Shown piece after piece: positions 34,140 through 38,427 of a DNA stretch of 44,903 nt. Source of the stretch: Dehalococcoidia bacterium (lineage in GTDB: Bacteria > Chloroflexota > Dehalococcoidia > Dehalococcoidales > W498). The stretch spans positions 64,847 to 109,749 of the forward strand of contig DUFC01000034.1 of NCBI GenBank assembly GCA_011191875.1, read 5' to 3'. A model generated the notes under the pieces. It was not told the origin of the DNA. It made no database searches and was given only the letters and a program-made list of their open reading frames with translations. A program made the translations under genes and the position numbers. Every line of letters begins with the position of its first letter. Position 1 is the stretch's first letter.

Positions 34140-34901
34140 TTAGAGTTCGTGATGTGGTATTCGATGTGGGACAAGAGAATGGGGCTTTTCCTGGCCATGG
34201 GCTTCCATCAACCTGTCATCACTCATAATCTTGCATGGGTCACCGTCGGTGATGATGTGTCCACTATCTACTAGCACAACACGGTTGCATACCTCCAAGA
34301 TAAGTTCTAGATCATGAGAGGCGATAAGAAGTGTCTCCTTTGATTCCTGCAAGAGATGAATGACACGACGTCTAGAACGGATGTCGAGGTTGGCACTCGG
34401 TTCGTCATAGATAAGCAGTCGAGGACGCATCGCCAGCACACCCGCAATAGAGACCATTCGCTTTTCCCCTTCTGAGAGATGGTGGGATGGTCGGTCAGCA
34501 AGTTCAACTGCACCCACCACTGAGAGTGCCTCCTTTACCCTCACTTCAACCTCGTCTTTTGATAGCCCCATGTTCTGGGGACCAAAGGCAACATCATCCC
34601 ACACTGACGGGCAGAACAGTTGGTCGTCTGGATTCTGAAAGACTAGAGCTACCTCGGGACGAAAGTGCCCATTCAGAACCGGCTTACCTAAGACAACGAT
34701 TTCCCCGGCGGATGGCTTCAGCACACCGCAGAGCCCCAGAAAGAAAGTGGTCTTACCAGCACCGTTAGGACCAATGAGTCCAACTCGCTCCCCCGGCATC
34801 ACCTTGAGACTCACGTCCTGTACAACATCGGGTCTGTCTGGGTAGGAGAGCCACAGTCCAGAAACAGTGAGCGTCGGTTTTATCAACTCTTCTGATAACA
34901 T
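34140..34901 (-). CDS. cbiO: ECF transporter ATP-binding protein, cobalt/nickel type
   Basis: The 253-residue ATPase has Walker A GPNGAGKTT at about 43-51, the Q-loop FQNPDDQLFCPSVWDD typical of CbiO/NikO energy-coupling factors, signature HLSEGEKRM, Walker B LLIYDEPSANLD and the switch histidine in IASHDLEL. It powers metal uptake together with the CbiQ and CbiM proteins encoded upstream. It is the last gene of the operon, 34 bases after cbiQ. An 8-bp inverted repeat (34082-34089 with 34125-34132) lies just past its stop. Confidence 0.93.
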   Translation of the reverse strand: MLSEELIKPTLTVSGLWLSYPDRPDVVQDVSLKVMPGERVGLIGPNGAGKTTFFLGLCGVLKPSAGEIVVLGKPVLNGHFRPEVALVFQNPDDQLFCPSVWDDVAFGPQNMGLSKDEVEVRVKEALSVVGAVELADRPSHHLSEGEKRMVSIAGVLAMRPRLLIYDEPSANLDIRSRRRVIHLLQESKETLLIASHDLELILEVCNRVVLVDSGHIITDGDPCKIMSDDRLMEAHGQEKPHSLVPHRIPHHEL

Positions 34902-34935: not shown

Positions 34936-35727
34936 TCATTGTAGCAAAGCGGCTACTCCGCGTCCATATAGGATATCCCCGGTTATGAACCCGATTGCAA
35001 TCAGGAGAAAAACACCGAGGGTAATTACATCGCGAGAATTGGTTTGAAATTCGCCCCGAGTAGTCGGGGCATAACCATAGCCCCGCAGAATCATTGCTTT
35101 GTATACCCACTCAGAACGCTCGTAACTACGCACCAGGATGCTACCGCCCAACCAGGCCGCAACATTAAGGGCACGAGTACTGAAGCAGTGCTTTTTATAC
35201 CCCCGTAGACTCATTGATGTCTGCATTTTCTGCAGGTCACTGCCAATTTCGTGCAGGTAGCGCAAGGAGAGAAGTACCATGTCAGCTAGGATGGCAGGTA
35301 GACCTAACGCTCGCATCGCTTTGATAGTAGTCAGGAAGGGAGCAGTGCCAAAGAGAATCAAGCCAATCGTCAGGATAGAGAGAAACCTAGTAACTACTAA
35401 AAGTACAGCAATAAGTCCTTCCTGCCGCAAATCTAGAGGACCAATGCTCATGACAATCGTCTGTCCTGAAACAAAAGGCAAGATGAGAACCACTACCAGT
35501 AGAAAAAAGGAAGGGTAACGTAATCGTCTCAGAATGAATGATACTGGTAGTTTAGAAATAATATAGATAGTGATAGTAACCACTACCATTGCCAGTAGCA
35601 TACGCAAGTCTCGGACAAAGGAGAAAGCGAAGATTAAGACCATAAGGCCAATTAATTTACACCGCGGTTCCCAGCGGTGTAACAGTGAGCCGAGGTCGGA
35701 GTATTCATCTACTATTCCAAGCTTCAT
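34936..35727 (-). CDS. cbiQ: ECF transporter transmembrane (T) component CbiQ
   Basis: The 263-residue membrane protein begins DEYSDLGSLLHRWEPRCKL, the usual CbiQ N-terminus, followed by several hydrophobic segments and the cytoplasmic coupling region with two Ala-Arg-Gly-like motifs, here SMSLRGYKK (about 168) and MILRGYGYAP (about 218), which contact the ATPase. It links substrate capture by CbiM to ATP hydrolysis by CbiO. Its start overlaps the cbiM stop by four bases. Confidence 0.92.
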   Translation of the reverse strand: MKLGIVDEYSDLGSLLHRWEPRCKLIGLMVLIFAFSFVRDLRMLLAMVVVTITIYIISKLPVSFILRRLRYPSFFLLVVVLILPFVSGQTIVMSIGPLDLRQEGLIAVLLVVTRFLSILTIGLILFGTAPFLTTIKAMRALGLPAILADMVLLSLRYLHEIGSDLQKMQTSMSLRGYKKHCFSTRALNVAAWLGGSILVRSYERSEWVYKAMILRGYGYAPTTRGEFQTNSRDVITLGVFLLIAIGFITGDILYGRGVAALLQ

Positions 35728-36365
35728 ACGCCATCCAAAATTCTTGGTCGTACTCGCTGAAGAAAGACGGCTAATAGCAAGGTTATAACACCTTCGATAG
35801 CTATCAATGGCAAGTGGGCTATGGCTAGTGTATAGAGTGCCGCCCGCTCGGTGCCGATATCCAGATCCGCCGGTATGTTAGTCAGCAGAATTAGCACAAA
35901 CATGGCTACCGATATTCCAATGGCAACAGCACCGGATAGAAATCCAAAAATGCCCGTCTTCCTCCGGCTCTCTTGATTCCCGAATCTGCGGATACGGAAT
36001 ATGTAGTGGGCTATTATTGCCGGTAATCCCATTATTACAGCGTTTACTCCCAGAGTAGTTAGCCCACCGTGCTGAAACATCACCGCCTGAAAGAATAAGC
36101 CAATGAGAATGGCCGGGAAGGCAAAATAACCCAGAACAGCACCCAAGAGTCCGTTTAGCACAAGATGAACACTGGTAGGCGGTACTGGGATGTGTATCCA
36201 AGAGGCAACGAAAAAGGCCGCCGTTAATAGAGAAGCTTTAGGAATATCCTGACGAGGGTTCTCCTTCTGATTAATTTTACGAACCGAGTACCAAGTGACC
36301 ACGACGGTGGCAGCATACCCGGCAGCAGTTACGGGGACAGGGAGAATACCATCGGGGATATGCAT
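35724..36365 (-). CDS. cbiM: ECF transporter substrate-binding membrane protein, cobalt/nickel (CbiM/NikM)
   Basis: The 213-residue protein begins with MHIPDG, the invariant N-terminus whose His2 and backbone bind Co2+ or Ni2+. I therefore use ATG 36365 (with AAGGAG upstream), not the in-frame ATG at 36425. Further conserved parts are HIPVPPTSVHLVLNGLLGAVLG and FQHGGLTTLGVNAV. About seven hydrophobic segments follow. The metal, cobalt or nickel, cannot be decided from this protein alone; the NikL-like partner and the lack of a CbiN gene lean toward nickel, while the corrinoid-rich neighbourhood would suit cobalt. It overlaps the nikL-like gene by one base and cbiQ by four. Confidence 0.93.
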   Translation of the reverse strand: MHIPDGILPVPVTAAGYAATVVVTWYSVRKINQKENPRQDIPKASLLTAAFFVASWIHIPVPPTSVHLVLNGLLGAVLGYFAFPAILIGLFFQAVMFQHGGLTTLGVNAVIMGLPAIIAHYIFRIRRFGNQESRRKTGIFGFLSGAVAIGISVAMFVLILLTNIPADLDIGTERAALYTLAIAHLPLIAIEGVITLLLAVFLQRVRPRILDGV

Positions 36366-36820
36366 CAAGCTCTCCTTCTTCGTGAGAAATAGAGTGCTGT
36401 GCCAACACTCCCCCAGATAAAGCAAGCCGCCATCAGGACAATCTGAAGGGCAGTATAGCCTCCGGTACCACCCGTTACCACCATATCTTCACCGATAGGT
36501 ATATGGACGATATCGCCGTGACCTGCCTGGCGTACCTGCACATCCCAGGTTCCTGGCTTGGAAGTATCGGGTATGAAGCTAAAGTAACCCCTATCATCAC
36601 AGACCCCGGTTAGCCAAGGAGAGGAGGGTTCATCAGGAGCATAGACTGTGACCTGGGCACCGCCCATCGGTTCGCCGTTGTCATAGGCAGCGATAATCTC
36701 AATCGCCATGTTAACCGTGTATTCGATTTTAACACCATGGGCAAGGGCTTTTATCGGCAGAACTAGATCAAGGATAAGAATAAAAATTATACACGTAATA
36801 ATTCTCCACTTCATATGCAT
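36365..36820 (-). CDS. NikL/CbiL-like auxiliary component of the metal ECF transporter
   Basis: The 151-residue protein has a signal peptide (1-28, ending IKALAHG), an extracytoplasmic beta-sandwich (about 30-115; GEPMGGAQVTVYAPDEP, then CDDRGYFSFIPDTSKPGTWDVQV, like a carboxypeptidase-regulatory fold), and a C-terminal anchor helix (about 125-145) ending FSRRRRA. This plan fits NikL proteins of NikKLMQO-type transporters, in which they replace NikN. The first residue of the mature part would be HG, and N-terminal histidines are known metal ligands in this system. It overlaps cbiM by one base. Confidence 0.78.
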   Translation of the reverse strand: MHMKWRIITCIIFILILDLVLPIKALAHGVKIEYTVNMAIEIIAAYDNGEPMGGAQVTVYAPDEPSSPWLTGVCDDRGYFSFIPDTSKPGTWDVQVRQAGHGDIVHIPIGEDMVVTGGTGGYTALQIVLMAACFIWGSVGTALYFSRRRRA

Positions 36821-36894: not shown

Positions 36895-37689
36895 CTAGTG
36901 GCAATGACAATGGCCTTCACCGACATGCCCCAGAGTGGGCAGAATATCTACTAGCATTTGGTAGTCCTCCGATGAGAACCTAGATTGCAGGTCGGCCATG
37001 TTGACATCCATCTTGCCACCTTCGGCAATACCGGCAAATGGTTCAAAACCAACAGCACTAACATTGAGGTCGTCATCTACTGGTGTCTCAGCATCACCAA
37101 AGATATGGTCAAAGTGGAAAGTCATCTCTACATCAGCCGTGCCGTCTGCCGCTACCATACCTTTACGTTCGTCGCCCACATATTCACCACAGGAGTATTC
37201 GTATTCTTCATCTACCTTGATGCTGAAATCAATGCTCTGACCATCTTTCTCAGCCGTCCCAACAATGACCAGGCTGTAACTATCAGCAGATCCCGAGGTT
37301 GCTTTAACCATCTTCCAGGAGATGGCATTATAGTGACCTATGGCAGCATTTTGGACTTCGCCTACGAGGATAGGTGGAGCGTTTTCACTACCCTCTGCTA
37401 GATCCACGGTATAAGTATTAAGAAGGTTAACCTTGACATCACATTCCATATTAACACCCAAGTGGGGGTCATACGGGGGCTCAGTCTGACAAGCAGTGAC
37501 ATCTGCCAGAGTAATGTACACATGAGTAAAGTTGATACTCCAGCCATCTTTGGAGACAAAGCCCTGTCGGACAAAGTCTTCACCATTAGCATGAAACTGA
37601 AGTGTCCCCACCGCACCACCACAACTGACAAGCATAATACCAACAACAGACAACACAGTAATAGCCAAAACAGGTATTCGTTTTCTCAT
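36895..37689 (-). CDS. Lipoprotein with a C-terminal HCHCH metal-binding tail, in the ECF operon
   Basis: The 264-residue protein has a lipoprotein signal (lipobox LVSC, Cys23) and a beta-rich extracytoplasmic body. WSINFTHVYITLADVTACQT and later VEMTFHFDHIFGD resemble the MbnP/DUF4382-like group only loosely. Several Asp/Glu-rich parts occur, and it ends GHVGEGHCHCH, an obvious soft-metal ligand cluster. It is the first gene of a unit with nikL-like, cbiM, cbiQ and cbiO, in the place where NikK (an extracytoplasmic metal-capturing protein) sits in other transporters. I infer that it binds the transported metal outside the membrane. TAGGAGAA precedes the ATG. No named family is certain. Confidence 0.68.
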   Translation of the reverse strand: MRKRIPVLAITVLSVVGIMLVSCGGAVGTLQFHANGEDFVRQGFVSKDGWSINFTHVYITLADVTACQTEPPYDPHLGVNMECDVKVNLLNTYTVDLAEGSENAPPILVGEVQNAAIGHYNAISWKMVKATSGSADSYSLVIVGTAEKDGQSIDFSIKVDEEYEYSCGEYVGDERKGMVAADGTADVEMTFHFDHIFGDAETPVDDDLNVSAVGFEPFAGIAEGGKMDVNMADLQSRFSSEDYQMLVDILPTLGHVGEGHCHCH

Positions 37690-37870: not shown

Positions 37871-37906
37871 TTATGCATATTTATGCATTTGCATTTCTTT
37901 GCATTA
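37871..37906. promoter_or_regulatory. Cluster of TGCAT repeats, candidate Fur-family operator of the ECF operon
   Basis: ttATGCATatttATGCATttGCATttctttGCATta holds four GCAT units with roughly regular spacing, including the inverted pair ATGCA-TT-TGCAT. The same half-site forms a perfect inverted repeat at 38385-38398 upstream of the regulator gene. It lies near the likely transcription start of the lipoprotein-ECF operon. Confidence 0.6.
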
Positions 37907-37921
37907 TCAAATTAAAAAAAT

Positions 37922-38344
37922 TTATTTTCTACAATTCACACAACGACCAAAAATAGCTAGGTGCTTTAAGTCAGCAATAAACCCGTATTCCCTAAGTAAA
38001 ACATCCTTTACTGAGGATAGCACCGATTCGTCAAGGTCAATTATGGCACCACACTCCTGACAGACCAGGTGATGATGATGCCCCTTCCCCACAGGGTGAT
38101 ACCTAACCCGACCTTCCCCCATGTCGGTCTCAGTTACCAGACCAAGTCGCTTCAGTAGTTCCAGGGTGCGGTAGACTGTTGATATGTTAACATTAGCATA
38201 TTTAGCCACCACCTGAGCGTAGATTTCCTCAGCGCTAATATGGTCATCACTATTATCAATAGCTGATAGAATCATTATCCGCTGAGGTGTCAGCCGATAG
38301 CCCAATTCGCTTAATTTACTACTTATGCCTCCGGGTTTGTTCAT
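37922..38344 (-). CDS. Fur-family metal-responsive transcriptional regulator
   Basis: The 140-residue protein has the winged-helix DNA-binding part (GYRLTPQRIMILSAI at about 16-30; ISTVYRTLELL recognition helix at about 54-64), the metal-site stretch GKGHHHHLVCQECG, and a structural zinc site of Cys95/98 and Cys135/138 (CVNCRK). Fur, Zur, Nur and PerR share this layout, so the metal sensed cannot be fixed. Its position beside a cobalt/nickel transporter operon, and TATGCA-type sites in front of both, suggest a nickel- or cobalt-sensing role. The ATG lies two to three bases from the predicted transcription start, so the mRNA may be leaderless. Confidence 0.9.
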   Translation of the reverse strand: MNKPGGISSKLSELGYRLTPQRIMILSAIDNSDDHISAEEIYAQVVAKYANVNISTVYRTLELLKRLGLVTETDMGEGRVRYHPVGKGHHHHLVCQECGAIIDLDESVLSSVKDVLLREYGFIADLKHLAIFGRCVNCRK

Positions 38345-38352
38345 TTCGGTGA

Positions 38353-38381
38353 ATTATACCACAACGGAATAGACTTTACAA
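38353..38381 (-). promoter_or_regulatory. Promoter of the Fur-family gene
   Basis: Minus strand: TTGTAA at 38381-38376, a 17-base spacer, and a perfect TATAAT at 38358-38353. Transcription would start about 38346, next to the ATG at 38344. Confidence 0.72.
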
Positions 38382-38384
38382 CCA

Positions 38385-38398
38385 TATGCAGTTGCATA
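38385..38398. promoter_or_regulatory. Perfect TATGCA-GT-TGCATA inverted repeat, candidate operator of the Fur-family gene
   Basis: A 6-2-6 inverted repeat sits directly upstream of the -35 box of the regulator's own promoter. The same half-site recurs four times at 37871-37906. Confidence 0.6.
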
Positions 38399-38427
38399 GA
38401 GTCTCAATTATAATTTATCTTAGCAAC

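Follow-up and report, generated by a model that had tools for sequence, protein, structure and literature searches.

A four-half-site operator at a Nur-like Fur-family gene and at metal importer operons in Dehalococcoidales-type Chloroflexota

Introduction

Does a single Fur-family regulator control both its own gene and a neighbouring metal importer, and if so, which metal does it sense? The question is raised by the window, the whole stretch of 44,903 nucleotides analysed here, which comes from a Dehalococcoidia bacterium (contig DUFC01000034.1 of assembly GCA_011191875.1). An earlier note on this DNA had proposed such joint control through TATGCA-N2-TGCATA repeats, with nickel or cobalt as the metal. 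We followed this proposal through the window, its 1.15-Mb assembly and 61 genomes of the order, and found a larger operator than the one first described, together with evidence that favours nickel.

Results

A four-half-site operator occurs on both sides of the regulator gene

The minus strand of the window carries, in order, dtd (38871-38428), a 6-2-6 inverted repeat, the Fur-family gene, a half-site cluster, and the genes for a lipoprotein and for NikL-like, CbiM, CbiQ and CbiO proteins (Table 1). The perfect repeat TATGCA-GT-TGCATA, which the note had placed beside the -35 box of the Fur-family gene, stands exactly at 38385-38398; it is the sole perfect 6-2-6 in the window and the only copy in the whole assembly (reversed-pattern control, 0). 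The four GCAT half-sites reported upstream of the lipoprotein-ECF operon were likewise recovered (starts 37875, 37885, 37891 and 37901), and a further 6-2-6, TATGCATTTGCATT (37882-37895), which departs from the pattern at one position, falls within this cluster. With up to three mismatches, the window holds 15 matches to the 6-2-6 pattern against 24.7 expected, which is weak when taken alone, and the pattern was rejected as the operator. The significant unit proved to consist of four TGCA half-sites at distances of 10, 6 and 10 bp. The motif first described is thus real, but merely the core of this unit, in which relatives read TTGCA; it is, as had been said, unlike the classical Fur box.

Two such units lie in the window, one before the regulator gene (OP1, 13 of 16 TGCA letters kept) and one before the importer operon (OP2, 16 of 16). 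They are the only 10-6-10 sites with at most three of 16 mismatches in the assembly; since the reversed control also gives one, OP1 at 13/16 alone is not beyond chance genome-wide and rests on conservation rather than on the count. A scoring matrix built from 50 sites, with the window's own genus left out, gave 26.9 bits for both OP1 and OP2 and 6.1 bits for the third-best place in the window; the maximum over 200 dinucleotide-shuffled windows was 20.9 bits.

Directly after the stop codon of the regulator, some 10 bp ahead of OP2, runs a stretch of T (TAAATTTTTTT on the coding strand, 37904-37921), a feature shared by most of the 27 loci with an OP2 (see below). This poly-T run was considered as a terminator, and none was found.

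Table 1. Positions of the features discussed, in window coordinates
Feature	Position	Strand	Remarks
OP1, four-half-site operator before the Fur-family gene	38377..38406	-	Holds the perfect 6-2-6; conserved in 32/39 loci
Promoter of the regulator gene	38353..38381	-	-35 TTGTAA 38381-38376, 17-bp spacer, -10 TATAAT 38358-38353
Fur-family regulator, Nur-like, 140 aa	37922..38344	-	PF01475; match to 3EYY
OP2, four-half-site operator after the regulator gene, before the lipoprotein-NikL-CbiM-Q-O operon	37874..37903	-	16/16 letters
Lipoprotein of no Pfam family	36895..37689	-	Invariant His/Cys tail LGHVGEGHCHC; may be the metal-binding component of the importer
NikL-like ECF transporter subunit	36365..36820	-	NF058648, 39.8 bits, under the cut-off of 100
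CbiM/NikM substrate-specific membrane subunit	35724..36365	-	Start at the MHIPDG Met; PF01891, 194 bits; NF004906, 329.5 bits
CbiQ/NikQ ECF T component	34936..35727	-	PF02361; TIGR02454 over cut-off
CbiO/NikO ATPase	34140..34901	-	PF00005; TIGR01166, 203.7 bits, cut-off 211.8

The operator is conserved with fixed spacing across the order

We searched 61 genomes of the order (Dehalococcoidales-type Chloroflexota, a little-studied group from soil and sediment), of which 59 have some Fur-family match and 46 a close homologue of the regulator (E <= 1e-30, a threshold that we set ourselves). Loci from 40 of the 45 other genomes with a homologue (G013, G026, G032, G036 and G048 were left out) and the window formed a set of 41. 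In the 200-bp flanks of the regulator gene, distances between TGCA copies peaked at 6, 10, 16 and 26 bp only (10, 20, 22 and 7 pairs upstream; 15, 30, 21 and 6 downstream; shuffle means of about 0.3), so that the operator consists of four half-sites spaced 10-6-10. A distance of 11 bp occurred twice upstream and never downstream, against 20 and 30 times for 10 bp. Among 90 symmetric spacings tested over 508 kb, 10-6-10 was matched at 14 or more of the 16 letters in 41 places, 37 lying no further than 300 bp from the regulator gene and four no further than 550 bp; next came 6-10-6 (15 sites) and 6-4-6 (7), whose matches can come from shared or overlapping half-sites, and every other spacing gave 0 or 1.

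At 12 or more of 16 letters, OP1 is present in 32 of 39 loci (two of the 41 were too short to read) and OP2, sought up to 200 bp past the regulator gene, in 27 of 41. A clear OP1 is missing in 7/39 loci and an OP2 within 200 bp in 14/41; at least three of these 14 (L045, L052 and L053) have it further off. Genome-wide, sites with at most one mismatch were found in 25 of the 61 genomes (reversed control, 0/61), namely in 25 of 46 with a close homologue and in none of the 15 without (p = 8e-5). Of the 29 places concerned, 26 lie within 600 bp of a homologue and three before importer operons elsewhere. The earlier note had named missing conservation of the motif upstream of orthologous operons as one refutation; the operator precedes all four lipoprotein-NikL-CbiM operons in the 61 genomes and 32 of 39 regulator genes, and its conservation at both places supports the view that one regulator may serve itself and the transporter. 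A third operator in G059 (L034:6177-6206) directly precedes a gene related to one in L039 that matches FmdE (PF02663).

The operator overlaps the promoter of the regulator gene

In the window, the fourth half-site of OP1 is at once the -35 box, TTGTAA, from which the regulator gene would be transcribed. Hexamers with at least four of the six letters of TATAAT were sought at spacers of 10 to 25 bp past this half-site, and 28 of the 32 OP1 sites have one at exactly 17 bp (other spacers, 0 to 8), which means that the half-site TTGCAA doubles as a -35 box. The overlap fits autorepression. At OP2, 16 of 27 loci show a -10-like hexamer between the third and fourth half-sites, a weak peak that is not clear in the window; this sole candidate for an OP2 promoter was not retained.

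The regulator resembles the nickel regulator Nur

The regulator matches the FUR domain with 108.3 bits (cut-off 23.1), and its AF2 model has the Fur fold. Its best solved relative is Streptomyces coelicolor Nur (3EYY, 122.2 bits; the next reaches 91.3), with solved Zur proteins far below Nur in score. In a structural comparison, 3EYY (Z 11.7; 42% identity over the structural alignment) came after chains of Fur, Mur and PerR (Z 14.6). Residues H35, H83, H90 and H92, invariant in 27 sequences, align to Nur H33, H81, H88 and H90, which we take to be the four-histidine common metal site (M-site). E72, D74 and H128 align to Nur H70, H72 and H126, presumably the nickel-specific site, of which one of three is kept and two are acidic. 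In a tree of 40 rows, the regulator falls on the Nur side with Streptomyces Nur, at weak support (79/86) and with the branching inside open; this group also takes in two paralogues from the order and a divergent Streptomyces pair, and a Streptomyces protein of the group scores 283 bits against 3EYY. The named near relatives of the regulator come from Dehalococcoidia and Dehalococcoidales MAGs, the nearest being 86% identical. We read the regulator as probably working like Nur and do not file it as Nur, because the operator spacing and two of the three presumed nickel-site histidines differ; the label Nur-like was chosen because tree support is weak and the structural ranking does not put Nur first. 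A second regulator subfamily, about 40% identical, occurs at L223, L228 and L209 (G032, G036 and G009), and in G032 and G036 it has 10-6-10-like sites adjoining importer genes.

The window importer includes a lipoprotein with a His/Cys tail

The M, Q and O subunits of an ECF importer are all encoded in the window, and the CbiM protein exceeds the cut-off of an NCBIfam model named for the cobalt transporter CbiM. The lipoprotein has no Pfam or NCBIfam match that would identify it as NikK. It occurs in four of 61 genomes, each time followed by genes for NikL-like and CbiM proteins, and all four operons have the operator upstream (16, 15, 15 and 13 letters), also where they are unlinked to the regulator gene. 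In G001 the operator heads the lipoprotein operon and is followed by two small genes, of which one encodes CooT; in G032 the regulator beside the lipoprotein operon is only 41% identical. Lipoproteins of the window and L225-L228 also share a FHFDHIFGD motif, and the G023 homologue matches DUF4382 weakly, under the cut-off. AF2 models of four lipoprotein sequences reached a mean pLDDT of 60, and Foldseek placed the copper protein MbnP at rows 3-6 and 8 (E 0.005 to 0.05, TM <= 0.3); with so weak a match to so poor a model, a possible MbnP-like fold is a lead only.

Different importers stand behind the same operator

The genes behind the regulator in the 41 loci, grouped into clusters and scanned through one representative per cluster, comprise PDGLE-bearing NikMNQO systems (16 loci, counted as those with a PDGLE gene), ZnuA-like proteins with ABC partners (8), NicO-type permeases (5), CooT (5) and lipoprotein-NikL (2). 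Operators unlinked to the regulator stand before lipoprotein-NikL-CbiM-Q-O in G023, before genes for a methyltransferase, SBP_bac_5, permeases and two ATPases in G045 (and likewise, at 14/16, in its sister G009), and before genes for a methyltransferase, DUF364 (putative heavy-metal chelation) and SBP_bac_5 in G059. Besides the lipoprotein operon, the operator-linked systems are NikMN(PDGLE)QO, NicO-type permeases, NikABCDE-type systems and ZnuABC-like ABC transporters, some with CooT. Across these gene neighbourhoods, the operator is kept and the importer varies among transporter families.

CooT is found in 14 of 61 genomes, and among its 16 loci an operator of at least 13 letters lies in the flanks of seven and is absent from nine; CooT is counted among the accessory proteins of CODH nickel insertion (PMC11247825). 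The ZnuA-like cluster (c5: L041:6745-7650, with a PAQCPGHFDI motif, L055, L062, L067 and four more loci) lies behind the operator with ABC partners and a SAM methyltransferase. ZnuABC-like systems usually serve zinc or manganese, and we regard this cluster as a candidate nickel importer of that family. Three different methyltransferase genes lie in or beside operator-linked importer operons (L178:11925-12746, L179:3732-4736 and L041:9320-9922), and a link to a metallophore or to metal in another way is possible. A protein of 67-89 aa of no known family is also encoded behind the regulator (L032:7573-7788 and four further loci, c9), in several of them directly before CooT.

The linked genes favour nickel as the metal

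Nickel is probably the metal of the regulator. It is favoured because NikMNQO, NicO, NikABCDE-type systems and CooT have nickel in common, because the closest solved protein is Nur, and because NikR exceeded its cut-off in 0/61 genomes (5/14 control genomes were positive) while the window's own genome matches acetyl-CoA synthase (PF03598) and the [NiFe]-hydrogenase family (PF00374). An acetyl-CoA synthase turned up in 42 of the 46 regulator-bearing genomes and in 9 of the 15 others (p = 0.01), several of the assemblies being incomplete. The earlier choice between nickel and cobalt can be narrowed to probable nickel from what else stands behind the operator. Against nickel count the name of the CbiM model, the ZnuABC-like systems in eight loci, and the replacement of two Nur histidines by E72 and D74.

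Discussion

We consider it likely that the regulator is a Nur-like, nickel-loaded repressor of its own gene and of the adjoining importer, acting through the 10-6-10 operator. Computation directly supports the existence and conservation of the operator, the overlap with the -35 box, and the ties that link it to metal importers and this regulator. From these we infer binding, repression, the two dimers and nickel as the metal. When nickel is plentiful, the regulator would occupy the four TGCA half-sites, most likely as two dimers, each seated on one of the 10-bp-spaced pairs, whose centres are separated by 16 bp or roughly one and a half turns. At OP1 the repressor would cover the -35 box of its own promoter, and at OP2 it would block the lipoprotein-NikL-CbiM-CbiQ-CbiO operon; when nickel falls, it would leave, and both the regulator gene and the importer would be transcribed.

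The same circuit could run on cobalt, with Co2+ sensed as co-repressor and the operon importing cobalt for B12, and the cobalt-named CbiM model agrees with this. NicO and CbiM families can carry either nickel or cobalt. We nevertheless regard cobalt as unlikely, because the operator in relatives precedes PDGLE/NikN genes, NikABCDE-type systems and CooT, the best solved relative is the nickel-specific Nur, and an Rfam scan of the window returned two tRNAs only and no cobalamin riboswitch, which also led us to reject riboswitch control of the importer operon as in the cobalt CbiMNQO type. Considerably less probable is a Zur, with zinc as its metal, the ZnuABC-like systems as its true targets and the rest as side targets: ZnuA, ABC-ATPase and ABC-3 genes do occupy the regulated slot at 8 of 41 loci, but nickel/cobalt-type importers fill it at most loci, CooT stands in the same gene row in some, and solved Zur proteins match far less well than Nur.

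Other doubts concern the mode of action rather than the metal. That the regulator activates the importer, or acts differently at its two sites, has about as small a chance as a Zur, if anything slightly greater; the weak -10-like peak within OP2 leaves room for it, whereas 28 of the 32 OP1 sites lie over the -35 box, as fits repression. The link between operator and regulator gene is positional, so another transcription factor might bind the 10-6-10 sites with the Fur-family gene merely one of its targets; we hold this to be a shade less probable again, as near-perfect operators are confined to genomes with a close homologue of the regulator and the half-site TTGCAA is the published one of Nur. 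The idea of chance AT-rich repeats without function, to which the lack of 6-2-6 enrichment at three mismatches would lend itself, is refuted by the comparative data: a matrix from other genera scores both sites well above the shuffle maximum, and the operator is conserved across loci at fixed spacing.

Among known systems, the Nur-like repressor proposed here stands closest to Nur. The S. coelicolor Nur box is tTGCaa-N5-ttGCAA, with half-sites 11 bp apart (PMC3919588). The present operator has the same TTGCAA half-site, and a nickel importer is among the putative targets; it differs in that the half-sites are 10 bp apart, not 11, and stand as four around a 6-bp centre, in that a strong autoregulation site is present, and in that no sodF target occurs among the loci read here. 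In two Streptomyces genomes we found TTGCAA-N5-TTGCAA before sodF-like and NikMN-like genes (identified by reading the protein sequence), as expected for Nur. Autoregulation of Streptomyces nur by the 10-6-10 design was rejected, since 56 loci (L122-L177, including L144, L154 and L160, which are not Actinobacteria) hold only 16 TGCA in total within 300 bp upstream.

Escherichia coli Zur, for which two cooperative dimers on one operator are described (PMC4219657), is likewise a Fur-family repressor with two dimers on adjacent DNA faces of a single operator, but it uses overlapping RNNNY sites and zinc, and the stoichiometry proposed here comes from spacing only. NikMNQO and NikM(K)LQO are described as nickel ECF importers (PMC2667541, PMC11247825); the window has M, L-like, Q and O subunits, and relatives have M, PDGLE (N), Q and O, the differences being that the window lipoprotein is not recognised as NikK and that NikL stays under its cut-off. 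NikR is comparable as a nickel-dependent repressor of nickel import and differs in fold and operator.

Searches of the open-licence literature listed no nickel-sensing Fur protein from Chloroflexi or Dehalococcoides. Taken jointly, the data may describe a second type of operator for Fur proteins that sense nickel, symmetric in its 10-6-10 spacing, read by two cooperating dimers, with its last half-site serving as the regulator's own -35 box, order-wide, and with the importer exchanged behind the second operator; we lean towards this joint reading by a modest degree. If it is true, the changed spacing relative to Streptomyces Nur would make the way in which Fur-family dimers read half-site spacing directly testable. 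The operator would also become a marker, the importer behind it being probably a nickel importer, and would help to assign substrates that sequence alone cannot, as for ZnuABC-like, OppA-like and CbiM-like systems; nickel would thereby be assigned to the ZnuABC-like system and to the new His/Cys-tailed lipoprotein. For the organisms themselves, it would represent the switch through which a large uncultured order responds to nickel, an order that has nickel-needing acetyl-CoA synthase and [NiFe]-hydrogenase-type enzymes and in which no NikR was found.
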